A stretch of 61,310 bases of DNA from an uncultured Acidobacteriota bacterium. Its GTDB lineage: Bacteria > Acidobacteriota > Vicinamibacteria > Vicinamibacterales > UBA2999. Position numbers and translations under genes: made by a program. Under the pieces are notes generated by a model. The model was not told the DNA's origin, did not search any database, and saw only the letters and a list, made by a program, of their open reading frames with translations. Location of the stretch: positions 1 to 61,310 of the forward strand of contig CADEDM010000007.1 in NCBI GenBank assembly GCA_902826065.1. Direction: 5' to 3'. Shown here in pieces: positions 16,043 through 54,104 of the stretch. Position 1 is the first letter of the stretch. Each line of letters begins with the position of its first letter.

Positions 16043-19000
16043 ATGCTGGACCTGCCGTCCCGCACCGCGCTCACCGCGCTCAGTGACCGTGCCGCCGCGG
16101 CCCTGCCCTGCCGCGCCGTCGGCTTCGTACGGGCGCTCGAGGACGCGCGGGCGTGGGTGCTGCAAGTCGCGCCGAATGGCGTCTCGACGCACGTCGTGCC
16201 GCAGGCCAGTCTGCCGCGCGCCCTGCGTCCCGACGCCAGCGGCGTCGAGGTCGAGGTGCTGCAGCGGCACGACGGGAATGCCATCGAGTGGCAGCTCGCG
16301 AGCCTCGATATCCGACAGGTGGTCGCGACGTCGCTGCCGGATGCGCAGCCCACCCGGTTCTGGATCGGCACGGGCGACGCGACGCCGCCGACGAGCGGTG
16401 AGATCGCCGCGGTGGCCGACGTCGCCGCTGCCGCGGCCGGCATGCTCGATGTGCCGCTGTCGGCCGACGCCGCGGCCGAGCGCTATCGCCGGCTCGACCT
16501 CGCCGCGGAGCTGCTTCCCACCCTCCTCCACGTACTCGACGTCCGGGAGGTGTTCAATCGCATCTCGGCCGCGGCCAACCGCGCCCTGCCGCACGACCTG
16601 CTGGTGCTGCGGATGTTCAGCGAGGACCTGAGGTTGAACACGATCTTCGCCGGATCGGGTGAGGCGCCGGTCGCCGGGCCGCCGGTGAGCCACGTCTACC
16701 CGCCGGCCGTGATCCGCGCGTGGGAGTACTCGATCATCGACGACATGGCCCGGCACACCGCCGAGGCCGACGGCCCGCTCGCCGCCACGGGGGCCCGCTC
16801 CACGCTGCGTCTGCCGATCAGGTTCGGCGGCCGTGTCATCGCCGGGCTGGCGTTCCTGGCCTACGAGCCCGGCCGGTACGAGAGCACCGACCTGGCTGTC
16901 GGACGGCGACTGGCGGATCACGTCGCGTCGGCGCTGTCGCACCATCACCTCGCGGAAGAGAGCCGGCGGACGGCGGCGTTGCGCGCCCGCGCCGACAGCC
17001 TCGACATGCTCGACGGCCTGCTCGACACGCTCACCGGCGTGCTCGACGTCCGCGATGTGTTCGCGCGCGTGTCGGAGGTGACGCGCGACGTGCTGCCGCA
17101 CGACGGCATCTCGATCCTCGAAGTGCGTGGGGCCACGGCGCGCATGCACGCCAGCCACGGCCTGGGCGACCCCGACCTCCCGTTCGACGTGCCGTTGCCT
17201 GTGCCGACGCTGTCGCTCGAACGCCACGAGGTGCGGATCATTCCCGACTACCTCGAACGGCCCGAGTACGCGACCGGCCCCGGGGTGCGCGCCGGCATGC
17301 GCTCGAGCCTGTTCGTGACGATTCGCCTCGACGGCAAGACCTGGGGCGGGGTGAACTTCTATTCGCGCCAGCCGGGGCGCTTCTCGCCCGACGACGCGCA
17401 CGTCGCCCGCCGCATCGCCGACCACATCGCGCTGGCGCTGTCGCACAGCCGCCTGGCCGAGCAGGTCCGCATCACCGAGGAACTGCGAGCCCGGGCCACC
17501 AACCTCGAGTTGCTCGACGCGTCGCTGACCTTGCTGATGAGCGCCGGCGAGATCGCCGACGTCTTCACCGGCATCTCCGCCGTCGCCGCCACCGTCCTGC
17601 CGCACGACGCGGTGTTGCTGATGGTGCGGCTGCCCGACGGCGTGCAGGCGCGGTTGTATGCCAGCAGCAACAGCACCTTCCCGCTGCCGACGATCTCGAA
17701 GGTGCCCGACGAGCTGCTCCAGAATCCTGACTGGGAGTTCCACATCTTCGACGACCTCCAGACGATGGCGGGCCGCTACGACCGGCTGGTGGACCTGGGC
17801 TTCCGCTCGTTCCTGCGAGTCCCCATCCGCCTCGATGGCAAGTTCGCCGGCGCGCTCATCTTCCTGAAGAAGACGACGGCCGCGTTCACGGCCGCCGACG
17901 TGCCGCTGGCCCGCCGGGTCGCCGACCGCCTGGCGGTGACGCTGGCCCGCGACCGCGAGGTCAACGCCGAACGGCGGGCCGACGAAGCGACCGAACGGGC
18001 GTCGCGCCTCGAGGCGCGCGTCCGCGCCCTCACCGACGAACTCGACGCCCGCACCGGCTACCGGCGCGTCGTCGGCGAGTCGAAGCCGTGGCGGCAGGTG
18101 CTGACCCAGGCGGCGCAGGTTGCCGCCACCGAGACGACGGCGTTGCTCCTCGGCGAGTCGGGCACCGGCAAGGAAGTCGTGTCGCGATTCATCCATCGCG
18201 CCTCGCCGCGCAGCGGCGGCCCGTTCGTCGCGCTGAACTGCGCGGCGCTGCCCGAACAGCTGCTCGAAGCCGAGCTCTTCGGCTACGAGCGTGGCGCCTT
18301 CACCGGCGCCGTGCAGAGCAAGCCGGGCCAGCTCGAACAAGCCGGCGGCGGCACGCTCTTCCTCGACGAGGTGGGCGAGATGAGCCTGCCGGCGCAGGCC
18401 AAGTTCCTGCGCGTGCTGCAGGAGCGCGAGTTCCAGCGGCTCGGTGGCACCCGCGTGCTGCGCAGCGACGCCCGCATCGTCGCCGCCACCAACCGCGACC
18501 TGCCGCGGGCCATCGCCAACGGCCAGTTCCGCGAAGACCTCTATTACCGCCTCAACGTCTTCGCCATCCGTCTGCCGGCGCTGCGCGATCGGCCCGACGA
18601 CATCCTGCCGCTGGCCGAGGCCTTCCTGACGGAGGTCGGCCGCGGGCTCGGACGTCCGCCCGGCGGCATCTCGAAGGACGCGCGGGAGATGCTCGTCGCC
18701 TACCACTGGCCGGGCAACGTCCGCGAGCTGCGCAACATCCTCGAGCGGGCCGCCATCCTGTGCGAGGGCGGCCTCATCACCGCCGAGTATCTCGGGCTGA
18801 ACCTGACCGCGTCGCCGCGCTTCGCGCCCGTGCCGGCGCCGGTGGCGGTCGCGGCCGGATCCGGACCTGCGGCCCCGGCGGCCGCGTCGCCGGCCGCAGC
18901 CGCGCCGATGGCCACGCCGCCCTCGTCGGCCGAGGACCTCGCCTCGATCGAGAAGACGATGATCGAGACGGCGCTGCAGAACGCCCGCTTCAACAAGTCG

Positions 19001-19072
19001 AAGGCCGCGAAGGCGCTCGGCATGACGCGCCATCAGCTCTACATCCGGATGCGCAAACACGGGCTCGAGTAG
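16043..19072 (+). CDS. GAF-domain sigma54-dependent transcriptional activator (paralogue 1)
   Basis: A 1009-residue bacterial enhancer-binding protein. Three GAF-like sensory modules occupy about 155-310, 325-480 and 495-650, each followed by a short linker helix with the shared phrase R-A-R-A-x-S/N-L-x-L/M-L-D. The AAA+ domain (about 680-915) has Walker A GESGTGKE (704-711), the sigma54-contacting loop GAFTGA (751-756), Walker B FLDEVGEM and the arginine-finger region [13 protein letters not shown] Fis-type helix-turn-helix ends the protein ([20 protein letters not shown]). It should bind an enhancer and open sigma54 promoters by ATP hydrolysis after a small-ligand, redox or gas signal reaches the GAF domains. 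There is no receiver domain. Its stop overlaps the start of a paralogue. Confidence 0.94.
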
Positions 19073-21594
19073 TGACGCCGCTACCTTCCCGCGAGACGCT
19101 GACCGCGATCGCCGCCCAGGTCGACGCCGTGACCCCGGCGGCGACGTTCGGGCTCGCCATGGACGTGCGCGACGGCCGCCTGCGCGTGCTGCACGTGTCG
19201 CCGCACGGCCTCGGGGCGCACGTGATGTCCGCTCCGGACGTCCCCGCCGTGCTGCGTCCCTCGTCCGCTGCCGGCGTGGTCGACGCCGTGATCGGTCCGG
19301 CCACCGAGGACCAGCCGATCGAGTGGACGTGGCAGTCTGCCGGCGTGCGACGCGTCGTCGCGGTCGATCTGCAAAGCGCGCCGATCCCGACGCGCCTGTG
19401 GATCGGGCTCGCCGATCCCGACGCGCTGTCGGCAGAGATCAGGCGCGGTGTGGACGACGTGGCGGCACGCGTCGCCGCGATCGTCGCGACCACGCCGGGG
19501 TCGCTCGACGTGACGGCGCTGACGCGCCTCGAGGCCGCCGCCGGCCTGCTGCCGGCGCTGCTCGGCGTGCTCGACGTGCGCGAGGTCTTCACGCGGCTGT
19601 CGGCGACGAGCGCGACGTCGCTGCCGCACGACCTGCTGACACTCGGTCTGTTCGACGACACCCTCACGGCGATGACGGTGCACACGGTCACGGCCGAGAG
19701 CACCACCATCGACCACGTGGCCATCGAGCGGTATCCGCTCGCCGCCAGCCGCGCCTTCGACTTCGACATCCTCGACGATCGCACGACGCATCCAGTCGAG
19801 CGCTCGCGGACACCGACCGACCTCGGCATGCGCTCGTCGCTGCGGCTGCCCCTGCGCGTCGACGACCAGGTGATCGGCGGTCTCGGCTTCAACCGCCGTG
19901 TCGCCGGCGCCTACACGACCGAGGACGTGGCCGTTGGCCGCCGTCTCGCCGACATCGTCGCCGTGGCGCTCTCGCACCAGCGCATGGCGGAACGCCTCGC
20001 GGCCGAGGCCCGCCTGCACGGCGAGTTGAAAGCGCGGGCTGCCAGCCTCGACCTGCTCGACAACTCGCTGGCCGCGCTCACCGACTCCGGCGGACTCGCG
20101 GGCGTCTTCGGCCGCTTCTCGGCCCTCGCCCAGGCGGTGCTGCCGCACGACGCCGCAGCACTCATGGTGCGGCTGCCCGACGGCCAGCGGGCGCGGCGCT
20201 ATGCCAGTGTCGGCTTCGACCCGCCGCCGCCGGAGATCATCCCGGTGCCGAAGGAACTGCTGGACGACCCCGACTGGGAGTACGGCCTCGTCGACGACGT
20301 CAGGACCCGCACCGACCCGCCCTACGACCGGCTGGCGGCCACCGGCTTCCGGTCGATGTTCCGCGTCTCCATCCGTCACGACGAACGCTTCGCGGGCGCG
20401 CTCCTCTTCTATTCGAAGACCGTGGCGGCGTTCTCCGCGGCCGACTTCCCGATGGGCCGGCGCATCGCCGATCGCATGGCCGTGACCCTGGCCCGCGATC
20501 GTGAGCTCGAGGCGTCGCGGCTGGCCGACGAGGCGCGGGAACGAGCCCAGCGGCTCGAGGATCGCGTGCGCGCACTCACCGACGAGCTCGACGCCCGCAC
20601 CGGCTACCGCCGCGTCGTCGGCGAGTCGCCGCGCTGGCGCGACGTGCTGCTGCAGGCGACCCGCGTCGCCGCCACCGACACCACGGTGCTGCTGCTGGGC
20701 GAATCGGGCACCGGCAAGGAAGTGGTCGCGCGGTTCGTGCACCGCGCCTCGCCGCGCAGTCACGGTCCGTTCGTGGCGCTGAACTGTGCCGCCCTGCCGG
20801 AGCAGCTTCTCGAGGCCGAGCTCTTCGGCTACGAACGAGGCGCCTTCACTGGCGCGATGCAGGCCAAGCCCGGCCAGCTCGAACAGGCGGCCGGCGGCAC
20901 GCTGCTTCTCGACGAGGTGGGCGAGATGAGCCCGTCGGCGCAGGCCAAGTTCCTGCGGGTGCTACAGGAACGAGAGTTCAAACGGCTCGGCGGCACGCGC
21001 ACCATCACGTCCGACGCCCGCGTCGTCGCCGCCACCAACCGCGATCTGAAGAAGGCCGTCTCTCTCGGGCAGTTCCGCGAGGACCTGTACTACCGTCTCG
21101 ACGTCTTCGCCATCCGTCTGCCGGCGCTGCGCGAACGCCGCGACGACATCCTGCCGCTGTGCGACGCGTTCCTCGCCGAGATCGGCCGCGGCCTCGGCCG
21201 GCCACCGGCCGGCGTGTCGCGCGACGCGCGGCAGGTGCTGATCGACTACGCGTGGCCCGGCAACGTCCGCGAGCTCCGCAACATCGTCGAGCGCGCGGCC
21301 ATCCTGTGCGACGGTGGTCTCATCACCACCGAGCACCTGACGTCGATTGCCGCGGTGCCGGCCGCGCCGCTGAGCGCGCCCGTCGAGACCGCGCTGCAGG
21401 CCCAGCCCGCGGCGTCGTTCGCCGCCTCGTCACCGCCGCCGGCGCCGGCGGGCGATCTCTCCACGATGGAACGCACGATGATCGAGCAGGCGCTGGCGGC
21501 GGCGCGCTTCAACAAGTCGAAGGCGGCCCGTGCCCTGGGCCTGACCCGGCACCAGCTCTATCAGCGCATGCGCAAGTACGGCTTCGAGGCCTGA
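19072..21594 (+). CDS. GAF-domain sigma54-dependent transcriptional activator (paralogue 2)
   Basis: An 840-residue paralogue of the preceding gene with one GAF module fewer: two GAF-like modules at about 140-310 and 330-490, then AAA+ with Walker A GESGTGKE (543-550), GAFTGA (590-595) and [12 protein letters not shown], and a C-terminal Fis helix-turn-helix ([20 protein letters not shown]). The start is the GTG at 19072 that shares its first base with the TAG of paralogue 1 (TAGTG). The recognition helices of the two proteins are nearly the same, so they may bind the same enhancers while sensing different ligands, or form mixed hexamers. Both keep the sigma54-contact loop. The pair clearly arose by tandem duplication. 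Confidence 0.93.
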
Positions 21595-21611: not shown

Positions 21612-23231
21612 CTACCCGTGGGCGGGTGCGATGGCTGCCGCCAGCATCGGCATCGCGGGCTCCGCCGCGTCGTGCACGCGGGCATCCGCGAACCAGCGGC
21701 GCACGGCGGCGACGTCGACGCCGGTCCCCGCCAGGCCGACGTGCCCGTCGGGCCGCAGCAGGTAGAAGGACGGCGCCGGCACGCCCGCGGCGGCCAGCGT
21801 CGCGGCGTCGTCGCCGTCACCAGGGATGGTGTGCACCTGCAGCAGGTCGCCGAGCCCGAGTTCGCCGGCCGAGGGCGCTGGCTGGCCCACCACGATCAGG
21901 CTGAAGCGCGTGTCGTCGAGTGCCTCGAACAGATCGCGTCTCGGTCCGCCTGGCGTGAGCGCCACCTGCAGCCACGGGAACCGCGCGCCCGGCTGGGGCG
22001 CCGTCGCCGGAAGGCCGTCGAGCGCCCGCGACAATGGACTCGCGGCATAGCGGATCCCGATCTGCGACAGCGTCAGGAACGCGGTGCGGCGCACGCGGGC
22101 GTGGCGCATGGCGAAGGCGGCCGCGCGCGCGGCGATGCGCGTGCGCACGATGCCGGCCAGCCACGAGTTCGAGACGACGAAGCGGAAGGCACGGTCGGTG
22201 GTCTCGAGCAGACGGTGCGCCACCGGCATGCGCTCGGCCTCGTAGGTGTCGAGCAGGGCGTCGTCGGCGCGGCCGCCCACCACCAGCGCCAGCTTCCATG
22301 CCAGGTTGTAAGCGTCCTGCAGGCCGGTGTTCATCCCCTGGCCGCCCATCGGGCTGTGGACGTGCGCGGCGTCGCCGAGCAGGAAGCAGCGGCGGTCGCG
22401 GAAGCGCTCGGTGCAGCGGTGGTGGATGCGGTAGGTCGAGAACCAGTCGCACGACGCGAACGTGAGCTGCTCACCGCCTTCGCGGCGCAGCGACGGAATC
22501 ACCGCGTCGAACGTCACCCCCGGCTGGCCGCGCAGCGCCTCGGGCAGGATGCCGATGACGCGCCAGCGGTTGACGCCGGCCATCGGGAACAGCAGCGTGA
22601 AGCCGTCGCGCCACAAGAAGACGTTGAGCTCGTCGGGCACCATCGCGCCGGTGGCCACGGTATCGGCCACGAAGAAGGTGTGCTCGTAGGGCTCGCCGGG
22701 GAAGCCGATGCCGTTCAACTCGCGCACGGAGCTTCTGCTGCCGTCGCAACCGGCCACGTAGGCGGCGGTCACCGTCTCCGTCGCACCATCCGCCGTGCGG
22801 ATCGTGGCGGTCACGCCGGTGGCGTGCTGCTCGAACGCGACCAGCTCGGTGTTCCAGCGCACATCGAGGCCCCAGTCACGCAGGCGCGCGCCGAGGAGAC
22901 GCTCGGTGTCGTCCTGGCCGAGCATCAGCACGTATGGGTACGGGCTCAGCCCCTGTCCCATCTCCTGCAAGGGGATGCGCGTGACCCGGCGACCGCCGAT
23001 CCACATGTTGGCGCCGGTACCGCGCCGGCCCAGACTCACCGCGCGCTCGGCGACGCCGAGCTGCGCGAAGATCTCGAGCGTGCGCGCGTGCACCGCCATC
23101 GCCCGCGTCTGCTCGGCCGGGCCCTGATGGCGATCGATGATCACAGCGCGTACGCCGCGGCGCCCCAGTTGGTTGGCCAGCATCAGGCCCGTAGGCCCCG
23201 CGCCGACGATGAGTACGTCCGTCGTCATCAT
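21612..23231 (-). CDS. FAD-dependent aromatic monooxygenase (PheA/TfdB family)
   Basis: A 539-residue class A flavin monooxygenase. The FAD Rossmann motif GAGPTGLMLANQL is at residues 10-22, the CDGSRSSVRE (DG) motif binds FAD/NADPH, and LLGDAAHVHSPMGGQGMN is the FAD ribityl-binding GD motif. The C-terminal part, ending after YLLRPDGHVGLAG, resembles the thioredoxin-like domain of phenol hydroxylase relatives. It is expected to hydroxylate an aromatic ring with NAD(P)H and oxygen; the substrate is unknown. Two adjacent ATGs (23231 and 23228) follow GGAGAGG; the second has the better spacing. It lies 35 bases after the HtrA-type gene on the same strand and could be the last gene of that operon. 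Confidence 0.9.
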   Translation of the reverse strand: MMTTDVLIVGAGPTGLMLANQLGRRGVRAVIIDRHQGPAEQTRAMAVHARTLEIFAQLGVAERAVSLGRRGTGANMWIGGRRVTRIPLQEMGQGLSPYPYVLMLGQDDTERLLGARLRDWGLDVRWNTELVAFEQHATGVTATIRTADGATETVTAAYVAGCDGSRSSVRELNGIGFPGEPYEHTFFVADTVATGAMVPDELNVFLWRDGFTLLFPMAGVNRWRVIGILPEALRGQPGVTFDAVIPSLRREGGEQLTFASCDWFSTYRIHHRCTERFRDRRCFLLGDAAHVHSPMGGQGMNTGLQDAYNLAWKLALVVGGRADDALLDTYEAERMPVAHRLLETTDRAFRFVVSNSWLAGIVRTRIAARAAAFAMRHARVRRTAFLTLSQIGIRYAASPLSRALDGLPATAPQPGARFPWLQVALTPGGPRRDLFEALDDTRFSLIVVGQPAPSAGELGLGDLLQVHTIPGDGDDAATLAAAGVPAPSFYLLRPDGHVGLAGTGVDVAAVRRWFADARVHDAAEPAMPMLAAAIAPAHG

Positions 23232-27653: not shown

Positions 27654-29249
27654 TCAGGCGGAGTGCGAGGCGACCAGCGTCGTGGCGGCGGACGCCGCCA
27701 CCGCGACGGCCTCCTGTGTGCCCGGCGCATGTGATGTCCACCAGCGCCGCGCATCGGCCTGGTCCCACGAGTCGCGGGTCAGGCACACCGCCGCCATGTC
27801 GAAGAGCGCCTCGGCGCTGTCGGGCCGATCGCGCGGGTCCTTCTGCAGGCACGCCATCACCAGGTCGTCGACGGCGCGCGGCACGTGGTGCTTCGCCTTG
27901 CGCGACGGCGGCACCGGCGTGTCCTGCACGTGGCGCATCAACTGGCGCATGCCGGTCTCGTCCCCGAACACCGGCTGGCCGGTGAGCAGGAAGTAGGCGA
28001 CGCAGCCGACGGCGTAGACGTCGGCGCGGCGATCGACGTCGTTGCCGACGATGGCCTCGGGTGCCATGTAGGCCGGCGTGCCGAGGATGCCGGCGTCGCG
28101 GGTCAGCATCGTCGCGCCGTGCTCGGGGTTCTCCTGGCGCACCAGGCCGAAGTCGAGCACCTTCACGAAGTCGTACTCGAGGCCCATCCGGCAGACGTAG
28201 ACGTTGGCCGGCTTGATGTCGCGGTGGATGAGGCCGGCCGCGTGCGCCTCGCCGAGCGAGCGGCAGATCTGCCGCACGAAGTGCAGCGCGCGAGCCGGAG
28301 GCAGCGGACCGAACTCGCGCACCAGCGACTCGAGGTCGCGGCCGTCGAGCAGCTCCATCACGTAGTAGAAGGTGCCGCCCTCGGTGAGGCCGAAGTCGAA
28401 GAGGCGGATGGTGTGCGGCGAACTGAGCGCCGCGGTCGCCTGTGCCTCGCGTTCGAAGCGCGCCAGCGTGGCCACGGCGCCGCCGCCGTCGCTGAGCATC
28501 TCCGGGCGAATCAGCTTGATGGCCGAGCCGCTGGCCAGCAGGCGGTGCTTGGCGCGCCACACCTCGCCCATGCCGCCTTCGCCAAGGCGCTCGACCAGCT
28601 CGTAGCTGCCAAGCGCGCGGGCCTCGCGGATCTTGCTGCCGAGGCGATAGAGCACCTGCGCCGGAATCACGGCCATGAAGGCGCAGACGAAGTTCGGGTA
28701 GAACATCAACAGCGTGGTGACCGGCGCCGGCACCGGCAGCCCGCGCAGGTGGGCGAGCCACACCGCCAGCGGGTCCATCGCCGCGGCGATGAGACCCGAG
28801 ATCAGCATCTTGCGCGGCCGCACCGGCGCGAGCATGCCGACGAACAGGATCAGCACCGTGATGCCCGAGAGCGGACGCTGGGTCGTGGGCTGCGCCACCC
28901 AGCTGTTCATCAGGGCCAGCCCGATGGCGTGCGGCACGATCAGCGCGGTGCCGATCTCCACCTTCACCGAGTGACGCACCGGGGCGTAGCGGACGAACAG
29001 CACCGACGCCACCGACAACACGAACGCGCTGGCCTCGATCAGCCCGTGGTAGGGGCCGCGGTTGCCGTGCGGCGCCAGCCACGCGTCCATCACGAAGTTG
29101 AGCGCCCAGATGCCCGCGCCCACCAGGTAGAGGAGCTGCACGCGGATCGACTGCTCGTGCTGCAGGTCGGCGGGCAGTGTGGCGCCGCCGATCGTCGAGC
29201 GTGATGCGCTCGATCCCTGATGCGGAGCGACGACGACGTTTGGTTTCAC
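27654..29249 (-). CDS. Membrane Ser/Thr protein kinase with N-terminal multi-helix domain
   Basis: A 531-residue protein in which the order is reversed compared with most bacterial kinases: about five to six membrane helices come first (about 37-200) and the kinase is C-terminal (about 215-495). Kinase motifs are intact: GEGGMGEVWRAK (223-234), Lys245 in AIKLI, IHRDIKPANV (341-350) and DFG (366-368). The membrane part has no obvious ligand motif. The GTG start at 29249 has GGAGG eight bases upstream; the open frame extends further without a better signal. It heads a minus-strand set with the beta-barrel, secreted kinase-like and HtrA genes, suggesting that it senses or controls the envelope. 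Confidence 0.9.
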   Translation of the reverse strand: MKPNVVVAPHQGSSASRSTIGGATLPADLQHEQSIRVQLLYLVGAGIWALNFVMDAWLAPHGNRGPYHGLIEASAFVLSVASVLFVRYAPVRHSVKVEIGTALIVPHAIGLALMNSWVAQPTTQRPLSGITVLILFVGMLAPVRPRKMLISGLIAAAMDPLAVWLAHLRGLPVPAPVTTLLMFYPNFVCAFMAVIPAQVLYRLGSKIREARALGSYELVERLGEGGMGEVWRAKHRLLASGSAIKLIRPEMLSDGGGAVATLARFEREAQATAALSSPHTIRLFDFGLTEGGTFYYVMELLDGRDLESLVREFGPLPPARALHFVRQICRSLGEAHAAGLIHRDIKPANVYVCRMGLEYDFVKVLDFGLVRQENPEHGATMLTRDAGILGTPAYMAPEAIVGNDVDRRADVYAVGCVAYFLLTGQPVFGDETGMRQLMRHVQDTPVPPSRKAKHHVPRAVDDLVMACLQKDPRDRPDSAEALFDMAAVCLTRDSWDQADARRWWTSHAPGTQEAVAVAASAATTLVASHSA

Positions 29250-29306
29250 CAGCCTGACCTCCACCTGTGTCCGTTCCGGCGTGAACGGTCTCGGCGCCGC
29301 CCTACT

Positions 29307-29321: not shown

Positions 29322-29603
29322 TACGGCGCGACAGCCGCGCGGTCGACGAGGTCTCACCGCGGTTCTGCGCCGAAATCCGCGGGAAATCCGCGCCTGGCGG
29401 CTGGTGACGCCGGCGTCATCCGCTGTGCCGCGACAGCTGGCGAGGTGTACAGGCAGCACCGGCAAGGTGTGCGGATCGGCGCAGGGTGCGCGGCGGGACA
29501 CAGGGTGCGGCAGGCCCCGCCCGCGTCGCACGTCCACACCATCCGCGGGTGATTCCGGCCTGATTTCCTCGAAATTCCGCCGATCTCGAGCGAATTGCCG
29601 CGG

Positions 29604-29620
29604 CTGGTCCGGAACTTGCC
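29604..29620 (+). promoter_or_regulatory. Sigma54 (-24/-12) promoter of the NHLP-efflux operon
   Basis: CTGGTCCGGAACTTGCC matches TGGCACG-N4-TTGC at 13 of 15 positions with intact GG and TTGC and the exact ten-base spacing. The expected transcription start is about 29631, and the ribosome site GAAGGGA (29634-29640) follows it immediately. The 17-base string TGGTCCGGAACTTGCCC recurs upstream of the gene at 51624. Confidence 0.75.
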
Positions 29621-29648: not shown

Positions 29649-29891
29649 GTGGCGCAACGCGTAATCGAGATGCTCATCGGGCGGCTCATCACCGACGAAC
29701 GATTCCGGGCCGAGTTCCTCGGCAATCCGGAACAGACCCTGCTCGACCTCGCCGACCACGGCCTCGAACTCAGCCGGACCGAGATCGCGGCCCTGGTGAA
29801 CACCGACCCCGCGGTGTGGACGCGCGCGGCCGACGCCCTGGACCCCCGACTGCAGAAGGTCAGCCTGACTGGCGAAGCGAGGATGTCATGA
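29649..29891 (+). CDS. Os1348-family NHLP-clan small protein
   Basis: An 80-residue protein with the pattern of the Os1348 family of the nitrile-hydratase-leader-like (NHLP) clan: an N-terminal helix (QRVIEMLIGRLITDERFR), LGNPEQTLLDL, LELSRTEIAALV and the terminal DPRLQKVSLTGE. NHLP sequences serve as leader regions of ribosomal peptides or evolved from the nitrile hydratase alpha subunit; the Os1348 group lacks an obvious cleavage site and core peptide, and no Cys- or Ser/Thr-rich core is visible here. No modifying enzyme (YcaO, radical SAM, LanM) is encoded nearby. The GTG start follows GAAGGGA and a sigma54 promoter. Its stop overlaps the TolC-like gene start (ATGA), so it is made together with the efflux system. 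The role is unknown. Confidence 0.8.
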   Translation: MAQRVIEMLIGRLITDERFRAEFLGNPEQTLLDLADHGLELSRTEIAALVNTDPAVWTRAADALDPRLQKVSLTGEARMS

Positions 29892-31249
29892 CGAGTCGAG
29901 TTGCAATCTGCGGCCTGCTGCTGGCCGCCCTGGCGCCCGCCGCGGTCGGGGCGCAGTCGATGACGGGCGACGCGCCCGGGGGGCGCCTGACCCTGGCCGA
30001 GGCCGTGCGCCTGGCCACCGGGCAGAACACCCAGGTGCAGACGGCCGTTCTGGAGGTGCAGAAGGCCGACGCCGAGGTCGCGACGGCGCGGAGCCGCCGG
30101 CTGCCGACGTTCCAGACCGAGGTGAGCGCGTCGCAGCTGCTCACCGGCGTCGACTTTGCGTTCCCGCAGGGCGCGTTCGGCACCTTCCCCGGCACCGGGC
30201 CGATTCCGTCGACGGACACCACGGTGAGCGTGCCGCGCCAGCCCACCGCTTACGTCTCGTCGCAGGTCGCGCAGCCGCTCACGCAGCTCGTGCAGATCGG
30301 CCTCGGCGTGAAGAGCGCCCAGGCCGGCCGCGCCATCGGCGAGGAGCGCGTGCGCGCCGCCAGGCTCGCGACGGTCAACGCGGTGAAGCGGCTCTACTTC
30401 GCCATCCTGCAGACCGAGAGCGCGATGGCCGCCAACGACGAGGCGATCACGCTCTACCGCGAGCTCGATCGGACGCTGCTCGTGCGCGTGGCCCAGAAGG
30501 TCGCGCTCAAGGGCGACTCGCTCGACGTGCAACTGCGCCTCGCCCAGGCCGAGCTGACGCGCACCACCTACGAGAACACGGCGGCCTCGCAGAAGGAACA
30601 GCTCAACCAGCTGCTCGGCCGCGACGTGCAGACGGCGTTCACGGTGGAGCCCGTGACCGAGCTGGCCGCGCTCGAGTTCGACGCGGCGTCGTCGCGTGCG
30701 GCCGCTCTGGCCAGCCGCCCCGATGTGCGGGAGGCGCGTCTCACGCTCGAGCGGGCCGAGTTCGACCGTCGCATCGCCAAGGCCGATCGCCTGCCCGAGG
30801 TGAGCCTGGCGCTCTCTTACACCTCGAACTTCAACATCGATCTCCTGCCGGCCAACATGGCCAGCCTCGGCGTGCAGGTGAAGTGGGAACCCTTCGACTG
30901 GGGCCGCCGCTCGCGCGAGCTGGCCGTCAAGGCCCACACCGTGCAGCAGGCAAAGCTCGGCGTCCGCGACGCCGAGGACAAGACGGTGATCGAGGTCAAC
31001 AGCCGTCTGCGCACGCTGGCGGAGAAGCGCGCGCTGCTGAACGTGGCGCAGCTGTCGCAGGGCGCGGCCAAGGAAAAGCTGCGCGTCGCCAGCAACCAGT
31101 ACCAGGTGCAGGCAGCGCTGCTGCCCGACGTGCTCAAGCTGCGCGCCGACGTGGCCAACACGGACGACGACTACCAGCAGGCCCTGATGGCCTTCTGGAC
31201 GGCCAAAGCGGATTTCGAACAGGCGGTTGGAGAGGACGTGATCCCATGA
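29888..31249 (+). CDS. TolC-family outer-membrane efflux protein
   Basis: A 453-residue outer-membrane factor. The signal peptide ends at about residue 21 (LAALAPAAVGAQS). The mature protein shows the duplicated TolC pattern of long helices and two barrel strand pairs: RLTLAEAVRLATGQNTQVQ at the first repeat and an alanine-rich helix with RPDVREARLTLERAEFDRR in the second. It would be the outer-membrane tunnel for the adaptor and RND pump encoded directly downstream. It overlaps the small NHLP-clan gene by four bases (ATGA) and the HlyD-type gene by ATGA, so all three are translationally coupled. Confidence 0.93.
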   Translation: MTSRVAICGLLLAALAPAAVGAQSMTGDAPGGRLTLAEAVRLATGQNTQVQTAVLEVQKADAEVATARSRRLPTFQTEVSASQLLTGVDFAFPQGAFGTFPGTGPIPSTDTTVSVPRQPTAYVSSQVAQPLTQLVQIGLGVKSAQAGRAIGEERVRAARLATVNAVKRLYFAILQTESAMAANDEAITLYRELDRTLLVRVAQKVALKGDSLDVQLRLAQAELTRTTYENTAASQKEQLNQLLGRDVQTAFTVEPVTELAALEFDAASSRAAALASRPDVREARLTLERAEFDRRIAKADRLPEVSLALSYTSNFNIDLLPANMASLGVQVKWEPFDWGRRSRELAVKAHTVQQAKLGVRDAEDKTVIEVNSRLRTLAEKRALLNVAQLSQGAAKEKLRVASNQYQVQAALLPDVLKLRADVANTDDDYQQALMAFWTAKADFEQAVGEDVIP

Positions 31250-32379
31250 ACGCGAAGACGACGGTGTGTGGTGTGCTGCTGGTGGCCGGCCTGGCCGCCG
31301 GGTGCTCGAAGGTCGAAGGCGAAGAGGCGAAGGCGCCGCAGCCGGTGCGCGCCGCCGCCGTGGCCGAGGCCCCGGCGCCCGCGGGCGTCCGCTACTCGGC
31401 GACGATCGAGCCCTACGAGCAGGTGACGCTGGCCTTCAAGACCAGCGGCTATGTCGACCAGGTGCTGGTGCGGCGCGGCGCGGATGGCCGGATGCGCACC
31501 GCGCAGCCCGGCGACACGGTGACGCGCGGCACGGTGCTGGCGCGCATCCGCGAGACCGATGCCCGCGAGAAGGTCGCGCAGGGCCGGTCGCGGCTGGCCG
31601 AGAGCGATGCGTCGCTCACGAAGGCGCGTCTCGATCTCGACCGGGCGCAGGCGCTCTACCGCGCCGAGAGCCTCATCAAGCCGGAACTCGATGCCGCGCA
31701 GGCGGCGTTCGATGGCGCCGAAGCGCGCGTGCGCTCGGCCAGGGCCGACCTCGAGCTGGCGGAGAGCGCCCTGCGCGATTGCCTGCTCATCGCTCCGTCG
31801 AGCGGCGTGGTGCTCGATCGCACCGTCGAAGTCGGCAGCCTGGCGTCGCCCGGCGCTGCCAGCTTCGTCATCGGCGACGTGCAGTCGGTGAAGGCGCGCT
31901 TCGGCATCCCCGACAGCGCCATCCAGTCGGTGCGCCTCGGCGACCCCATCGACGTCACCGTCGAGGCCATCGGCGCGCAGACCCTGACCGGCCGGCTCAC
32001 GGCCATCGCGCCGGTCGCCGACGCGCAGAGCCGCGTGTTCGACGTCGAAGTCACGATTCCCAACGGCGCCGGCTCGCTGCGCCCCGGGATGATCGGCACC
32101 GTCGCCATCGGTGGCGACGCCGTCGCGGCGAAGGCGCCGCGGCCCCTGACCGTGCCGCTCACCGCCATCGTGCGGTCGCGCGACAACGGCGCCCAGTTCG
32201 CGGTGTTCGTGGTCGAGCGCCACAACGGCACCGAGACCGCGCGCGCCCGCAGGGTCCAGCTCGGCGAGGTCATCGGCAACGGCATCGCCGTGCGCGACGG
32301 CCTGACCGACGGCGAGACCGTGGTCGTCAGCGGCGCGACGCTGCTGGTCGACGGCGCGGAAATCAAAGTGATCGAGTAG
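31246..32379 (+). CDS. RND efflux periplasmic adaptor (HlyD/AcrA family lipoprotein)
   Basis: A 377-residue membrane-fusion protein. The N-terminus is a lipoprotein signal with lipobox LAAGC, so Cys20 should be lipidated. It has the lipoyl/barrel-sandwich halves (SGYVDQVLVRRG and APSSGVVLDRTVEVGSLA) around an alpha-hairpin (about 100-165, AREKVAQGRSRLAESDASL), and a beta-barrel/MP region at the C-terminus (ATLLVDGAEIKVIE). It links the RND pump to the TolC-like channel. The start ATG is embedded in the stop of the channel gene. It is separated from the pump gene by 33 bases that contain a heptamer repeat. Confidence 0.93.
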   Translation: MNAKTTVCGVLLVAGLAAGCSKVEGEEAKAPQPVRAAAVAEAPAPAGVRYSATIEPYEQVTLAFKTSGYVDQVLVRRGADGRMRTAQPGDTVTRGTVLARIRETDAREKVAQGRSRLAESDASLTKARLDLDRAQALYRAESLIKPELDAAQAAFDGAEARVRSARADLELAESALRDCLLIAPSSGVVLDRTVEVGSLASPGAASFVIGDVQSVKARFGIPDSAIQSVRLGDPIDVTVEAIGAQTLTGRLTAIAPVADAQSRVFDVEVTIPNGAGSLRPGMIGTVAIGGDAVAAKAPRPLTVPLTAIVRSRDNGAQFAVFVVERHNGTETARARRVQLGEVIGNGIAVRDGLTDGETVVVSGATLLVDGAEIKVIE

Positions 32380-36062: not shown

Positions 36063-38762
36063 ATGTCGACCACCGCCGAACACCGCCGGCTCGCCGAGAC
36101 CGCCTCGGGCACGGCCGACTGGCAGCGCTGGGGCCCGTACGTGAGCGATCGCGCGTGGGGCACCGTGCGCGAGGACTACAGCGCCGACGGCAACGCCTGG
36201 GACTACTTCCCGCACGACCACGCGCGCAGCCGGGCCTATCGCTGGAACGAGGACGGCCTGGCCGGCTTCTGCGATCGCGACCAGGCGCTGTGCCTGGGCG
36301 TCGTGCTGTGGAATCAGCAGGACCCGATCCTCAAGGAGCGCCTGTTCGGGCTCTCGAATCGCGAGGGCAACCACGGCGAGGACGTGAAGGAACACTACGT
36401 CTACGTCGACAACGTCCCCTCGCACGCCTATGCGCGGATGCTCTACAAGTACCCGCAGGTGGCGTTCCCCTACGCCACGCTGGTCGACGAGAACGCGAAG
36501 CGCGGCGGCGATGCGCCGGAGTTCGAACTCGCCGACGCGGCAGGCCCGGCCTTCCGCGACGGCCGCTACTTCGATGTGGCCATCGAGTACGCGAAGGCCG
36601 GCCCGGAAGACCTGCTGTGCCGCATCGAAGTGGTCAACCGCGGCCCGGAGCCGGCACCCATCCACGTGCTGCCGCACTTGTGGTACCGCAACAACTGGTC
36701 GTGGGACCAGCAGCGTCCACGGCACGTCATCTGCGCCGCGGGACCCGGTGCGGCCACGACGACGCACGCGATCGTCGGCGCCCGGCACTGGTACGTGCAG
36801 GGCGAGGACGGCCGCACGCCGCCGATCTGGTTCACCGAGAACGACACCAATACCGAGCGGCTGTTCGGCGCGCCGAATCCCTCGCCCTACGTGAAGGACT
36901 CGATCAACGACGCGGTCGTCTACGGCCAGTGGGATCGGGTGAACCGGCAGCAGGGCAGCAAGGCCGCGGCGCACTGCACCACCGTCGTCGCGCCTGGCGG
37001 TGTGTTCGTGACCTACGTGCGCCTGGCCCCGTCGTCGATGGCGCGGCCGTTCGCGCGCGTCGAGGCGCTGTTCGCGAAACGCCGCCGCGAAGCCGACGAG
37101 TTCTACGACGCGGTGCACGCGCCGCACCTCACCGCCGATGAACGGCTGGTGCAGCGGCAGGCGTTCGCCGGGCTGTTGTGGTCGAAACAGTTCTACCACT
37201 ACGACGTGCATCACTGGCTGGCCGGTGATCCGTCGCAGCCGGCGCCGCCGGCCGGGCGCTGGAAGGGCCGCAACGCCGACTGGGCGCTGCACTTCCACAC
37301 CCACGACGTCGTGCTGATGCCCGACAAGTGGGAATATCCGTGGTTCGCGTCGTGGGACCTGGCGTTCCAGGCGGTGGTGATGGCAGAGATCGATCCGGCC
37401 TTCGCCAAGGGCCAGATGCGGCTGTTGACGCTGCCGCGCACGCAGCATCCGTACGGCGCGGTGCCGGCGTTCGAGTGGGACTTCAATGCCGTGAACCCGC
37501 CGGTGATCGCCTGGGCGGTGTGGCAGATCTACCAGCTCGAACGGCTGAAGCACGGCCACGGCGACCTCGCCTTCCTCGAGGAGATGTTCGAGCCGCTGCT
37601 GCTGATGCTCGGGTGGTGGCTGCACCGCAAGGACAGGGAGGGCAAGGGCATCTTCGGCGGCGGCTCCCTCGGCCTCGACAACATCGGCGTCTTCGACCGC
37701 GACCAGCCGCTGCCCACCGGCGGTGCGCTCGAGCAGGGCGACGCCACCGGCTGGATGGCGGTGTTCCAGCAGAACATGTCGGCCATCGCGTTCGAGCTGG
37801 CGCTGCACGAGCCGCGCTACGAGCCGATGGTGCACCGCTTCGGCCAGGACCTGGTGATGGTGTCGAAGGTGCTGCGGCAGGGCGGCAGCAACGGCGCCGG
37901 GCTGTGGGACGAAGCCGGCGGGTTCTTCTTCGACGTCATCCGCGATGGCGCCGATCGGCTGCCGCTGCGGATCTACTCGATGGTCGGCCTGGTGCCGCTG
38001 TTCGCCGCCACGGTCGTCGAGCCGGCGACGCTGGCGCGACTGCCGCAGCTGATGCAGCAGACCAACGTCGTGCTGAACAGCCGCGATTACCTGAAGGCGC
38101 TGCTGCCGTCGTTCGTCGAGCCCGGCAAGGACGGGACGCGCATGCTCTCGGTGGTGGACCGCCACCAGCTGCGGATCATCCTGGAGCGCGTGCTCGACGA
38201 GACGCAGTTCCTGTCGCCGTTTGGCGTGCGGTCGCTGTCGCGCCTGCATGCCGACGAGCCGTATCGCTTCGCCGCGGGTGGCCGCGAGTACGAGGTGTCG
38301 TACCAGCCGGGGCCGTCCACCGACCGCATGTTCGGCGGCAACTCCAACTGGCGCGGGCCGATCTGGTTTCCCATGAACTTCCTGCTGATCCAGGCCATCG
38401 CCACCTGTGCGCGCTACTACGGCGACGATTTCAGGCTCGAGTGCCCGACGGGGTCGGGGCGGTGGCTCACGCTGGCCGAGGTGGCCGACGAACTCGCCGA
38501 CCGGCTGACGCGCCTGTTCGTGCGCGACGACGCCGGCCGCCGGCCGGCACTGGGCAACGAACCGTTGTTCCACGACGATCCGCACTGGCGCGACCAGGTC
38601 GTCTTCCACGAGTTCTTCCACGGCGACACCGGCGCCGGGCTGGGCGCCAGCCACCAGACCGGCTGGACCGCGCTCGTGGCGCTGCTGCTGCAGTACCGCG
38701 GACGGCTGTCGTTCGACCAGCGCGTCGCCAGCCCCGCGCCGGTCGAGCAGGAGGTGGCGTGA
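36063..38762 (+). CDS. GH63/MGH1-like glucosidase
   Basis: An 899-residue cytoplasmic protein (no signal peptide) that resembles bacterial GH63/MGH1-like alpha-glucosidases annotated as glucosidase. Conserved-looking segments are [54 protein letters not shown] and the C-terminal [13 protein letters not shown]. Family members release glucose from small alpha-glucosides such as mannosyl- or glucosylglycerate or oligosaccharides. It lies 38 bases after the RND gene without a visible terminator, and its TGA overlaps the ATG of the glucose-6-phosphate dehydrogenase gene (TGATG). The context (glucokinase-type gene and oxidative pentose-phosphate genes downstream) suggests that it liberates glucose for that pathway. 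Confidence 0.8.
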
Positions 38763-40156
38763 TGACGCCGATACCCGCGGATGCCCTGGTGTTCTTTGGC
38801 GCCACCGGCGATCTCGCCTACAAGAAGATCTTTCCGGCGCTCCACGGCATGGCCAGGCACGGACATCTCGCGATGCCCGTCGTCGCCGTGGCCAAGTCGG
38901 GCTGGACGCTCGACCAGCTCCGCGCCCGTGCCGCCGAGAGCATCGAGCGTCACGGCCATCGTGACCGCGCCGCGCTCGACACGCTGCTGCGCGCCCTGCG
39001 CTACGTCGACGGCGACTACGGCGATCCGGCGACGTTTGCCGGGCTGGGCGCCGAGCTGGGCGCGGCGGCGCGTCCGGTGCACTACCTCGCCATCCCGCCG
39101 AAGGTGTTCGGCCTGGTGTTCGAGCAGATCGGCGCGTCGGGCTCGGCGCGCGACGGCCGCGTGGTGATCGAGAAGCCGTTCGGGCACACCTTGCGCACGG
39201 CGCAGGCGCTGAACGCCACCGTCCACACCGTGTTCGACGAAGAACGCGTGTTCAGGATCGATCACTACCTGGGCAAGAACGCCGTCCAGAACCTGCTGTT
39301 CTTCCGCTTCGGCAACGCCTGGGTGGAGCCGATCTGGAATCGCCAGTACGTGGAGAGCGTGCAGATCACGATGGCCGAGAGTTTCGGCGTCGATGGCCGC
39401 GGCCAGTTCTACGACCAGACCGGCGCGATCCGCGACGTGGTGCAGAACCACCTGCTGCAGCTTCTCACCAACGTGGCGATGGAGCCGCCGCCGGGCGCCG
39501 TGCCGGAACTGGTGCGCGACGAGAAGGCGAAGGTGCTGAAGGGCATCGCGCCGCTCAGGCCGGAAGACGTCGTGCGCGGACAGTTCCGCGGCTATCGCGA
39601 CGAGCCGGGTGTGCGTCCCGGATCGACGGTGGAGACCTTCGTGGCGCTGCGCCTGTGGATCAACTCGTGGCGCTGGAAGGGCGTGCCGTTCTACATCCGC
39701 GCCGGCAAGCGGATGGGCACGACGGCCACGGAAGTCGTCGTGACGCTGCGCCAGGCGCCGGCGCTCTTCGGCGACATCGCGCCGCCGGCGAATCGGTTCC
39801 GCTTCCAGGTGACGCCTGGCCAGACCATCGCCATCAGCTCGTTCGTCAAGGTCGCCGGCTCGTCACTGCTCGGCGAGTCGGTGGAGCTCACGGTGAGCGA
39901 CCACAGCGATCCGACCGAGATGACGGCCTACGAGGAACTGCTCCACGACGCGATTCGCGGCGTGTCGGCGCGCTTCGCTCGACAGGACTACGTGGAAGAG
40001 GCGTGGCGGATCGTCGACCCCGTGCTCGACGACGCGACGCCGGTGTTCAGCTATGCCCCCGGCACGTGGGGCCCGGCCGAGGCCGCGGCGATCGCGCCGC
40101 CCGACGGCTGGCAGACGCCGCTCGTGCCCGACCTGCAACCGGCGCTGGCCTCCTGA
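38762..40156 (+). CDS. zwf: Glucose-6-phosphate 1-dehydrogenase
   Basis: A 464-residue enzyme. The dinucleotide motif [15 protein letters not shown] is at residues 13-27 and the substrate/active-site signature RIDHYLGK at 165-172. The sequence keeps the family's IRAGKRM and [12 protein letters not shown] blocks. It oxidises glucose 6-phosphate to 6-phosphogluconolactone with NADP+ (or NAD+), the entry of the pentose-phosphate pathway; 6-phosphogluconolactonase and 6-phosphogluconate dehydrogenase genes are further along the same operon. The start overlaps the stop of the glucosidase gene by one base. It is about 25 residues shorter than E. coli Zwf. Confidence 0.96.
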
Positions 40157-51365: not shown

Positions 51366-51556
51366 CGTGCTGCCCCGAGGTTGTACCGCACTCGGGCCGG
51401 CTATGTGCGGCGGCCGTGCTCACTTCCACGCAGGGTGTCCCGATCGGCGCAGCATGTGGCCGCGTCCACGGCGGCGTGCCTGGTCCGAGACCTCACAACG
51501 GCTGGGAAAACGGCGGAATCTCTGCGAGGGCGGCGCGCCGCTGGCCGGCTTCATGG

Positions 51557-51573
51557 TGGTCCGGAACTTGCCC
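51557..51573 (+). promoter_or_regulatory. Sigma54 (-24/-12) promoter of the PEP-utilising enzyme gene
   Basis: TGGTCCGGAACTTGCCC is identical to 29605-29621. It has GG and TTGC at exact ten-base spacing; the predicted start is about 51583. The ribosome site AAGGA (51613-51617) and ATG 51624 follow. Confidence 0.75.
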
Positions 51574-51623: not shown

Positions 51624-54104
51624 ATGACTTTCGCGACCCTCGCCACCACCGCCCGCCGCCTCGCCGACCTCACCGCTGCCGACGAGCTCCGGGCCGGCGC
51701 CAAGGCGGCCAACTGCGGACGTCTGCGGCGTGCCGGGTTCCCGGCGCCCGACGGCCTGGTGTGGCTGGCCGGCAGTGACGCGGCGGCCCTGGCCGGACTG
51801 TCTGCCGACCCGTGGTTCGACGAGCAGCCGACGGGCACCCTCTACGCCGTGCGCTCGTCGGGCATCGGCGAGGACGGCGCCGGACAGTCGTTCGCGGGCG
51901 TGCACCGCACCGAGCTCGACGTGCCCCGCGACCAGGTCGCCGCGGCCGTGGCGTCGTGCCTGGCATCGGGCCACGACGCGCAGGCGACCGGGTACCGTCG
52001 CGCCAAGGGTCTCTCGGTCGACGACATCGCGATGGGCGTGCTCATCCAGCCGATGGTGCGGGCGCGTGTCTCGGGCGTCGCCTTCACCGTGAACCCGGTT
52101 ACCGGCGCCGCCGACGAGATGGTGATCAACGCCAGCTTCGGCCTGGGCGAGGCGCTGGTGAGCGGCCAGGTCGATCCCGACGAACTCGTCGTGCGCAAGG
52201 CCGACGGTGCGCTGCGCTGGCAGCGACTCGGCGACAAGGGCGCCGCCGCCGGCGCGGCGACGGCGGCGTTGACCGACGCGCAGCGCTCGGACCTCGCCGC
52301 GCTGCTCGTGCGCATCGAGCGCGAGTTCGGCGCGCCGCAGGACGTGGAGTGGTGCCACGACGGCGAGCGGTTCTGCGTCGTGCAGTCGCGCCCGGTGACG
52401 ACGACCGCGGCGGCGACCGACGAGATCGAGTGGACGCGCGCCAACCTCGCCGAGGTGCTGCCCGACATCACGTCACCACAGGCGCTGCACTCGTTCGAAA
52501 CGGCGTTGAACGATGCCCAGCGCCGCTACCTGGGCAGGATGCTGGCATCCGAAGAACGGCTCGGACCGGTTGCCAGGACGTTCCACGGACGGCTCTGCTT
52601 CAACCTCTCGCAGTTCCGGCATCTGTCGGCGCTGGGCGGCCAGCCGGCGGCCGCGATGCTTCGCTCGATGGGCCACGCCGACGCCATCCGACCCGAGGAC
52701 GAGGTTGCGCCCAAGCCGAACATCCCGCTGGCCGCCGTGCCAGACATCGCGCGGATCGTGTGGCAGCACCTCAACCCGGAAGCCGTGATCCGCGCCCATC
52801 ACCGCCGCCACGCCGAGGTGATGGACCGGATGCGCGCCGACGATCTCGAGGCGCTCGACGACGTCGAACTGTGGCGCCCGATCGCGTGGTGGGAAGGCGT
52901 CTCGGTCGAGTACCTGCAGACCGTGCTGGTGCTCGGCAACGTGCTGTTCCACGAGCGCAAGGTGCAGACGGCGTGCGCGGCCGTCGGCCACTCCGCGGAG
53001 GCGTTGCTGTTCACGCATCTGGCGGCCGGCGAACGCTCGCTCAGCGGTCAGCAGGCGTTCGATCTCGTGGGTCTCGCTGACATCGCGCGGCAGGATCCGG
53101 CCGCGACGGCGGCCATGCTCGACGGTCCTCTCGACGCCGTGAACATTCGCCGGCGCCTTCGCGGCACGCCATTCCTCGAGGCGTTCGAGCGCTTCCTGAG
53201 CACCTACGGTCACCGTGGGCACTACGAATACGACTGGTCGCTGCCGCGCTACGCGGAGGATCCGTCGACCATCCTCAACGCCGTGCGCGCACATCTGCAG
53301 GCGCCGCCGCAGCCGGCTGCGGATCCCGCCGCGGTGGACGCGGCCGCCGCGGACGCGTGGCGTGAGTTCGACGCGACGCTGTCGTCGTGGCAGCGTTGGA
53401 CCACCGGCCGATCGGTGCGCAAGGCGCTCACGCGCGTGAAGCAGTACTACGTGTGGCGTGAGCGCGTGCGCTCGGACATCGCGCACGTGGTCATGGCCGA
53501 GCGGGCGCGACATCTCGAGCTGGCCGGCCGATTCGTGGAGCGCGGCTGGATCGCCCGCGCCGACGAGTATTTCCTGCTGCACCTCAGCGAGGTCGCCGAG
53601 ATGGTGGCCGGCACGCGCGCGTCGTCGACGCTGAAGGGCATCATCGCCAGTCGGGCGGCGGAGATGGCCCGCTGGCGCCAGGTGCACGTGCCGCACCTGC
53701 TGCGCGCGTCCGACCTGCCGCGCCTGCTGCGGCTCACCAACGTCACGGGCGGCGTGGACGGCGACACGATCTCCGGCTTTCCGGTGAGCCCCGGCCGTGT
53801 CGAGGCGGAGGTCGTCGTCGTGCGCGACCCCAGCGACTTCGGACGGATGAAGCGCGGCGCCATCCTGGTGGCGCCGGCCACCGATCCTTCGTGGACGCCG
53901 CTGTTCACCCTGGCGTCGGGCGTCATCGTCGAAGTCGGCGGTGTGCTGTCACACGCCTCGACCATCGCCCGCGAGTACGGCCTGCCGGCGCTCGCCAACG
54001 TGCGGAACGCGACGAAGGTGCTGCGCACGGGCGAGCGCGTGTGCCTCGACGCCGACGGCGGCACGGTCACGCGGGTGGAGGGCACCGCGGCCAGCACGCG
54101 CTAG
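51624..54104 (+). CDS. PEP-utilising phosphotransferase (PEP synthase / rifamycin phosphotransferase-like)
   Basis: An 826-residue protein with a PPDK-type ATP-grasp N-terminal part (about 20-315: GAKAANCGRLRRAGFPAPDG, YAVRSSGIGEDGAGQSFAG, ASFGLGEALVSGQVDPDE, QDVEWCHDGERFCVVQSRPV), a long central region without recognised motifs (about 320-700), and a C-terminal swivelling phosphohistidine domain with GGVLSHASTIAREYGLPAL (His777). It lacks the C-terminal PEP/pyruvate TIM barrel of true PEP synthase. ATP-grasp, middle domain and His domain is the order seen in rifamycin phosphotransferase (RPH), which makes AMP and phosphate while phosphorylating a small molecule. The substrate is unknown; the middle part would determine it. 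ATG 51594 is an alternative start with no ribosome site. Confidence 0.85.
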   Translation: MTFATLATTARRLADLTAADELRAGAKAANCGRLRRAGFPAPDGLVWLAGSDAAALAGLSADPWFDEQPTGTLYAVRSSGIGEDGAGQSFAGVHRTELDVPRDQVAAAVASCLASGHDAQATGYRRAKGLSVDDIAMGVLIQPMVRARVSGVAFTVNPVTGAADEMVINASFGLGEALVSGQVDPDELVVRKADGALRWQRLGDKGAAAGAATAALTDAQRSDLAALLVRIEREFGAPQDVEWCHDGERFCVVQSRPVTTTAAATDEIEWTRANLAEVLPDITSPQALHSFETALNDAQRRYLGRMLASEERLGPVARTFHGRLCFNLSQFRHLSALGGQPAAAMLRSMGHADAIRPEDEVAPKPNIPLAAVPDIARIVWQHLNPEAVIRAHHRRHAEVMDRMRADDLEALDDVELWRPIAWWEGVSVEYLQTVLVLGNVLFHERKVQTACAAVGHSAEALLFTHLAAGERSLSGQQAFDLVGLADIARQDPAATAAMLDGPLDAVNIRRRLRGTPFLEAFERFLSTYGHRGHYEYDWSLPRYAEDPSTILNAVRAHLQAPPQPAADPAAVDAAAADAWREFDATLSSWQRWTTGRSVRKALTRVKQYYVWRERVRSDIAHVVMAERARHLELAGRFVERGWIARADEYFLLHLSEVAEMVAGTRASSTLKGIIASRAAEMARWRQVHVPHLLRASDLPRLLRLTNVTGGVDGDTISGFPVSPGRVEAEVVVVRDPSDFGRMKRGAILVAPATDPSWTPLFTLASGVIVEVGGVLSHASTIAREYGLPALANVRNATKVLRTGERVCLDADGGTVTRVEGTAASTR

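Follow-up and report, generated by a model that had tools for sequence, protein, structure and literature searches.

The window analyzed here is a 61,310-nucleotide (nt) stretch of contig CADEDM010000007.1 from an uncultured Acidobacteriota bacterium. It contains a gene for a small protein of the Os1348 family, in the NHLP clan, which heads an operon for a tripartite exporter (Table 1). We propose that this NHLP protein is a folded, cytosolic member of an efflux regulon that is controlled by sigma54 and a GAF-domain activator, and that it is a feedback or coupling regulator and not an antibiotic. We put the probability of this reading at roughly 40%. Os1348-family genes are currently annotated and mined as precursors of ribosomally synthesized and post-translationally modified peptides (RiPPs). 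The large set of Os1348-family genes that we examined has another conserved context: a sigma54 promoter, one clade of GAF activators, a co-translated exporter, and no maturase that we could find.

The NHLP gene and its conserved neighborhood

The original prediction, made by reading the letters, placed the 80-residue protein in the NHLP clan. A hidden Markov model search agrees: the protein scores 64.4 bits against NCBIfam model NF038399 ("Os1348 family NHLP clan protein"), which has a cut-off of 40. An AlphaFold (AF2) model of the protein has a pLDDT of 87, and its final 8 residues are disordered. Both Foldseek and VIA-align give the crystal structure of Os1348 (PDB:6LK7) as the best match in the PDB, which assigns the model to the Os1348 fold (Foldseek probability 1.00 and TM-score 0.59-0.69; VIA-align Z 6.9 over 65 residues). 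(The Foldseek E-values were weak, as expected for such a short protein.) A sequence profile of the NHLP family also ranks 6LK7 first, weakly. The fold-search lists gave no other convincing match beyond 6LK7, an absence that carries no weight. Among relatives, pairwise dN/dS values are 0.05-0.30 (purifying selection), so the NHLP protein itself is under selection. It has no signal peptide and is therefore probably cytosolic, and we found no membrane segment in any NHLP protein.

We then examined the exporter genes. The TolC gene starts (at 29888) within the stop codon of the NHLP gene (TGA at 29889-29891), via the sequence ATGA, and the HlyD gene starts likewise at the stop of TolC (31246). Gene coordinates, along with Pfam and NCBIfam matches, uphold this part of the original prediction, including the RND gene that follows. 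With a channel, an adaptor, and a permease in one operon, this is a tripartite RND efflux system. The extent originally given for the system (29649-32379) was too short, as the RND gene, the activators at 16043-21594, and the gene at 51624-54104 also belong to it.

To describe the neighborhood more widely, we surveyed 149 genomes from the same order and 396 from the phylum, which gave 16 and 25 genomes, respectively, with an NHLP match above the cut-off. (The surveys cover one phylum, the genomes are mostly metagenome-assembled genomes (MAGs), and we rely on predicted gene calls, starts, and promoters.) We examined the surroundings of 43 NHLP matches, including the window. Six other or doubtful matches (L051, L054, L105-L108) and a locus on a 4-kb contig (L109) were excluded from the count, so the counted set is 36 loci from about 14 families. 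A TolC/HlyD exporter adjoins or lies near the NHLP gene in 31 of the 36, and a sigma54 activator is nearby in 30. (The latter count includes the window's activators, which are 8 kb off, and the activator of L102, which is partly covered.) As a control, we scanned 20 random 16-kb stretches from the same genomes with the same models and found no activator, HlyD, RND, or TolC gene; these stretches yielded solely ABC ATPases and MacB-like permeases. The control and the two surveys rule out a chance neighborhood, and the association with TolC and HlyD genes that was originally noticed in the window holds across the phylum.

The arrangement of these genes varies. The window's order, NHLP-TolC-HlyD-RND, is also found in five other loci (L092, L093, L094, L095, and L104), and five more have NHLP-HlyD-RND (L090, L091, L097, L100, and L101). 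Elsewhere the order is NHLP-TolC-HlyD-ABC-ABC-ABC2 permease (L036, L043, and L047) or NHLP-MacB-type permease-ATPase-HlyD-TolC (L033). The exporter can also be divergent from the NHLP gene (L035, L038, and L040), or the exporter operon can end with the NHLP gene (L039, L042, L045, and L052). In L037, L044, and L053, the NHLP gene is beside an activator with no adjacent exporter, and in L048 it has a sigma54 site and precedes a soluble PPDK-type enzyme. Thus, the type of exporter switches (RND, MacB-type, or ABC-2) while the NHLP gene and the activator persist. A scan of genome contigs with a narrow pattern gave 6 loci, all from MAGs of the same phylum. Spread on plasmids is unsupported, as tblastn against a plasmid collection found no NHLP match.

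The four-nucleotide overlap is also widespread. We checked 21 loci (including the window) for a same-strand downstream gene. In 15 of them, the NHLP gene and the gene after it share exactly 4 nt at the NHLP stop (ATGA, GTGA, or TTGA), and the partner can be TolC, HlyD, or a MacB-type permease. In the remaining loci, the following gene either begins further on or does not come immediately after NHLP. Some NHLP genes have non-ATG starts. Because the NHLP gene comes first and its stop overlaps the next start, the NHLP protein and the exporter are probably made together.

The original prediction had the NHLP gene as the first gene after a sigma54 promoter, and we find the site at 29605-29620. Scoring -24/-12 sites with hand-chosen weights and a threshold of 11.4, we found sites of at least 11.4 with GG-N10-GC spacing at 11-57 nt before the start codon for about 29 of the 36 NHLP genes, so both spacing and placement are consistent. 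Just 3.7% of random 120-nt stretches hold a sigma54-like site of at least 11.4 anywhere. Where the NHLP gene is not first, the exporter usually has a site of its own: 8 of 13 tested exporter operons have a sigma54-like site upstream of HlyD (L035, L038, L039, L040, L042, L045, L052, and L102). We also searched a 280-nt stretch ahead of each sigma54 site for the dyad TGTGCG-N6-CGCACA. It matches at 10 or more of 12 positions in 10 of the 21 loci from the order, with a peak at spacing 6, versus 0.55 loci expected from shuffles; this statistic is partly circular because the motif was first spotted by eye in some of the same sequences. If the five promoters that were inspected beforehand are dropped, 7 of the 10 matches remain. 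The window has two sites of this type, one of them upstream of the NHLP gene.

The original prediction overlooked the partner that stays constant: sigma54 activators, all from one clade. The NHLP-linked activators have the architecture GAF-AAA+(PF00158)-Fis, as a cognate activator should. We built a tree (in quick mode) from 31 linked activators and, from the same genomes, 25 others. One clade (SH-aLRT 100) holds all 31 linked activators, including both from the window, along with 1 of the 25 others (L157, which is unlinked). A profile for the clade separates the two groups, with linked activators at 735 bits or more and the others at 453 or less. In the order, 32 genomes have the clade, including all 16 with an NHLP match above the cut-off; two weak or contig-edge NHLP matches (G104 and G111) are from genomes outside those 32. 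Overall, the module is well supported in its structure, its sigma54 site, its activator clade, and its conserved linkage.

The window's own lineage probably did not inherit the module vertically. Four congeners have neither the NHLP gene nor a clade activator, and a distant homolog of TolC is present in just two other genomes of the window's family. The window's activators cluster with the L033 and L034 activators, which are from another family; the NHLP-less activators of the window's family make up a single subclade that excludes the window's activators. Because the congeners lack the module and the activators group with another family's, horizontal gain is likely. Alternatively, the contig may be mis-binned. 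We attempted an empty-site comparison in the congeners, and the flanking gene was too distant for a safe ortholog.

Possible roles of the NHLP protein

We propose the following circuit. A GAF activator from the tandem genes (16043-21594) would sense a signal in the cytosol, plausibly a toxic compound. Bound to the upstream element, it would switch on the NHLP-TolC-HlyD-RND operon through sigma54, and it would do the same for one or more enzyme genes, including that at 51624. The NHLP protein, which leads the operon and whose stop overlaps the next start, would be made along with the exporter. It would remain cytosolic, a small, folded, helical, and probably dimeric protein. In the cytosol, it would most likely regulate the response, for instance by negative feedback on the activator, by analogy to PspA and PspF. 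In this scheme, we infer the biochemical role of the NHLP protein, along with its binding partner and cytosolic location, the inducer, and the sign of the regulation.

Three roles were originally suggested for the NHLP protein (an exported signal, a pump subunit, or a regulator), and a regulator fits best, for two reasons. First, the NHLP gene and the clade activator are constant while the exporter's family and the NHLP gene's position vary, which favors a role in the regulatory circuit. Second, an NHLP gene can occur with only the activator beside it or ahead of a soluble enzyme, which favors a regulator over a part of the exporter or a secreted product.

Three other observations weigh against this reading. 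The strict overlap with the first gene of the exporter could suggest a role that is related to the exporter. In the window's family, most relatives with the activator clade have no NHLP gene and no nearby exporter; as the two are absent together, the NHLP gene tracks the exporter too. And Os1348 has a reported antibiotic-related phenotype in Pseudomonas (PMC7726476).

The first two of these observations bear on whether the NHLP protein is an accessory of the exporter, which might dock on it or escort its substrate in the cytosol. The 4-nt overlap in 15 loci would suit such a protein, as would the joint absence of NHLP and exporter around the clade activators of the window's family. But the immediate partner differs (TolC, HlyD, or MacB-type permease), the permeases are from unrelated families, NHLP proteins have no membrane segment, and several NHLP genes stand alone beside an activator. 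The original idea of a pump subunit loses ground because NHLP accompanies RND, MacB-type, and ABC-2 exporters alike, and the MacB-type and ABC-2 versions weaken an RND-specific subunit in particular. We consider an accessory to be unlikely.

A slightly less likely explanation is that the NHLP protein is exported, as a peptide or protein signal or as a bacteriocin, by the neighboring TolC-dependent exporter. RND pumps usually handle small periplasmic substrates, which counts against it. RiPP precursors are known from the NHLP clan (PMC2887384), and co-translation with the exporter in 15 loci would make sense for an exported product. Also, in Pseudomonas Os17, cellular Os1348 rises if the nearby RND gene is missing, and loss of Os1348 reduces antibiotic activity (PMC7726476). 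However, the NHLP protein lacks a signal peptide, a double-glycine cleavage site, and a variable core; the exporter is interchangeable; and four NHLP copies (L037, L044, L048, and L053) have no adjacent exporter.

We rejected a RiPP precursor as the main explanation. RiPP-precursor models, including the Frankia peptide model, score below their cut-offs for the NHLP protein (TIGR03793, 14.4 vs. 50.9; TIGR04509, 25.9 vs. 34; PF14407, 27.8 vs. 48). Across 33 homologs, the conserved domain extends almost to the C-terminus (several proteins stop 4-6 residues beyond it), and there is no diversified core peptide. The original prediction saw no RiPP-modifying enzyme nearby, and this holds for the neighboring genes that we scanned. 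Genome-wide (the genome is about 97% complete), we found 0 YcaO and 0 LanC-like genes; radical-SAM, SagB, methyltransferase, and ATP-grasp genes were not searched for at that scale. LanC-like genes are present, but unlinked, in 3 of 12 module-bearing genomes.

Less probable again is a buffer that binds a drug or ligand, to shield the cell or to present the inducer to the activator. The helical fold is conserved, and the NHLP gene seems to be co-regulated with efflux and with enzymes from superfamilies that include antibiotic-modifying members, but those enzymes are assigned at the superfamily level only. Finally, a near-constant 4-nt overlap and the non-ATG starts in some loci could mean that the NHLP frame is mainly a translational gate for the exporter's mRNA and that the protein matters little, but this is improbable given the protein's conservation (dN/dS of 0.05-0.30) and the copies that are separately transcribed or at the end of an operon (L039, L042, L045, and L052).

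More broadly, and tentatively, this whole Os1348/NHLP subfamily could comprise cytosolic regulators instead of RiPP precursors. They would serve a single clade of GAF sigma54 activators and be co-translated with whichever exporter the activator controls, which would be a new sigma54 feedback circuit for chemical defense across the phylum. If so, genome-mining pipelines mislabel such Os1348-family genes, and a major soil phylum has a small-protein layer of efflux control.

The regulon and neighboring genes

The sigma54 site before the NHLP gene is rare in this genome. Across 5.6 Mb, there are three copies of the exact 16-mer TGGTCCGGAACTTGCC: one ahead of the NHLP gene, one ahead of the gene at 51624-54104, and one on another contig (C170), where the genome's second NHLP gene and third clade activator are also located. 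Similarly, the element TGTSCSGATCGGCGCA has exactly three mismatch-free occurrences (at 29468, 51436, and C170:4381), each 118-137 nt before a sigma54-like site. (Only the rarity of TGTSCSGATCGGCGCA is informative, because its two free positions were picked from these three copies.) The element on C170 is followed by a near copy of the sigma54 site (at 4499), which lies about 90 nt ahead of a DUF4136 gene.

Two enzymes may be under the same control. The gene at 51624-54104 is a probable member of the regulon; along its length, its product shares 52% identity with that of the gene that follows NHLP in L048. The monooxygenase gene at 21612-23231 is a possible member: a 41% identical homolog, beside the NHLP/activator locus on C170, has a strong sigma54 site upstream. 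The superfamilies of both products include antibiotic-inactivating members, and we suspect that the regulon answers toxic compounds. We can assign both products at the superfamily level only. The first falls far short of the rifamycin phosphotransferase model NF041857 (283 bits vs. a cut-off of 999) and could be PEP-synthase-like, rifamycin-phosphotransferase-like, or PigC-like; the second falls far short of the rifampin monooxygenase model NF033145 (255 bits vs. 800).

Table 1. Predicted features of the window, in order of position.
Feature	Position	Strand	Remarks
Sigma54 activator 1, GAF - AAA+ (PF00158) - Fis	16043..19072	+	Pfam; inside the NHLP-linked clade
Sigma54 activator 2, GAF - AAA+ - Fis, tandem	19072..21594	+	Pfam; same clade, near the L033/L034 activators
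FAD-dependent monooxygenase adjoining the activators	21612..23231	-	PF01494
Candidate upstream activating (enhancer) element TGTGCGGATCGGCGCAGG	29468..29485	+	137 nt upstream of the sigma54 site
Sigma54 -24/-12 promoter TGGTCCGGAACTTGCC	29605..29620	+	28 nt upstream of NHLP; position and spacing conserved across loci
Os1348-family NHLP-clan protein	29649..29891	+	GTG start; 80 residues; matches NF038399
TolC-like outer membrane channel (OEP)	29888..31249	+	PF02321, 134 bits; ATGA overlap with NHLP
HlyD/RND-type periplasmic adaptor	31246..32379	+	TIGR01730, 207 bits; ATGA overlap with TolC
RND permease, 1203 residues	32413..36024	+	PF00873, 489 bits
Upstream element, second copy, TGTCCCGATCGGCGCA	51436..51451	+	Genome pattern match
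Sigma54 promoter, exact second copy	51557..51572	+	121 nt after element start; 51 nt before start codon
PPDK_N / PEP-utilizers protein, 826 residues (dikinase / rifamycin-phosphotransferase superfamily)	51624..54104	+	Pfam

The second NHLP locus of this genome (L053, C170 2524-11286) encodes a hybrid histidine kinase, the DUF4136 protein, the FAD monooxygenase, the GAF activator, and NHLP, with a scaffold gap between the last two. In L048 (1911-4847), the NHLP gene with its sigma54 site is followed by the PPDK-type enzyme, and the stretch examined has neither an activator nor an exporter. Tandem clade activators are found in two unrelated loci, the window (16043-21594) and L103 (8008-12305), and the AAA+ cores of the L103 pair are nearly identical. 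Within the window's family, L222-L229 and L232-L235 keep one clade activator, without NHLP or an exporter.

In the window, a membrane serine/threonine kinase (27654-29264) is divergent from the NHLP operon; the two share an upstream region, and the kinase has a minus-strand sigma54-like site at 29321. Downstream is a run of pentose phosphate genes (36063-46489), which includes a fusion of transaldolase and glucose-6-phosphate isomerase (43655-46489). In four other loci (L037, L041, L044, and L049), the NHLP gene adjoins a cluster of five envelope genes (a PMT-type glycosyltransferase, a YdjC deacetylase, a GT2 protein, an unknown protein, and an outer membrane beta-barrel), which resembles a set for modifying lipid A or the envelope.

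Comparison with known systems

We found no description of this NHLP-sigma54-exporter module in open-access papers. The closest relative is Os1348 of Pseudomonas sp. Os17 (PDB:6LK7; PMC7726476), which resembles the window's protein in family model, helical fold, length, and adjoining RND genes. In Os17, however, Os1348 is followed by GNAT, HEXXH-peptidase, and SagB-like genes, none of which are at the window's locus. The Os17 RND operon (emhABC) is on the opposite strand and is also present in strains without Os1348, whereas the window's exporter is co-translated. And expression of Os1348 is under Gac/Rsm control with -35/-10 elements (PMC7726476), in contrast to a sigma54-type promoter. A regulatory role would recast the puzzle of the Pseudomonas protein, which is beside an RND pump, has no demonstrated secretion, and builds up in the cell upon loss of the pump.

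The NHLP/NHLM systems for RiPPs (PMC2887384) also have an NHLP-clan sequence with an HlyD-like adaptor nearby. But the window's NHLP lacks a core and falls short of TIGR03793, we did not find a maturase, and the exporter is an RND or other tripartite system. The helical domains of borosin precursors (SonA, PDB:9CH7; OphMA, PDB:5N0O) have weak similarity to the NHLP fold (46-51 residues, Z 4.7-5.2), but we saw no alpha-N-methyltransferase partner and no core peptide.

Regulated RND, MacAB, and ABC-2 tripartite efflux operons likewise keep TolC, HlyD-like, and permease genes together. What differs is that control in the window is apparently by a GAF sigma54 activator, with NHLP in front, instead of by a local one-component repressor. 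For the proposed circuit, the nearest parallel is PspA: its operon depends on the sigma54 activator PspF, and PspA in turn inhibits PspF (PMC3128695, PMC3068692). In both cases, a sigma54 activator would drive an operon with a small protein that could act back on it, although for NHLP the feedback is by analogy. PspA is a coiled-coil protein that is unrelated to NHLP, and PspF has no sensory domain, while the NHLP-linked activators have GAF domains.

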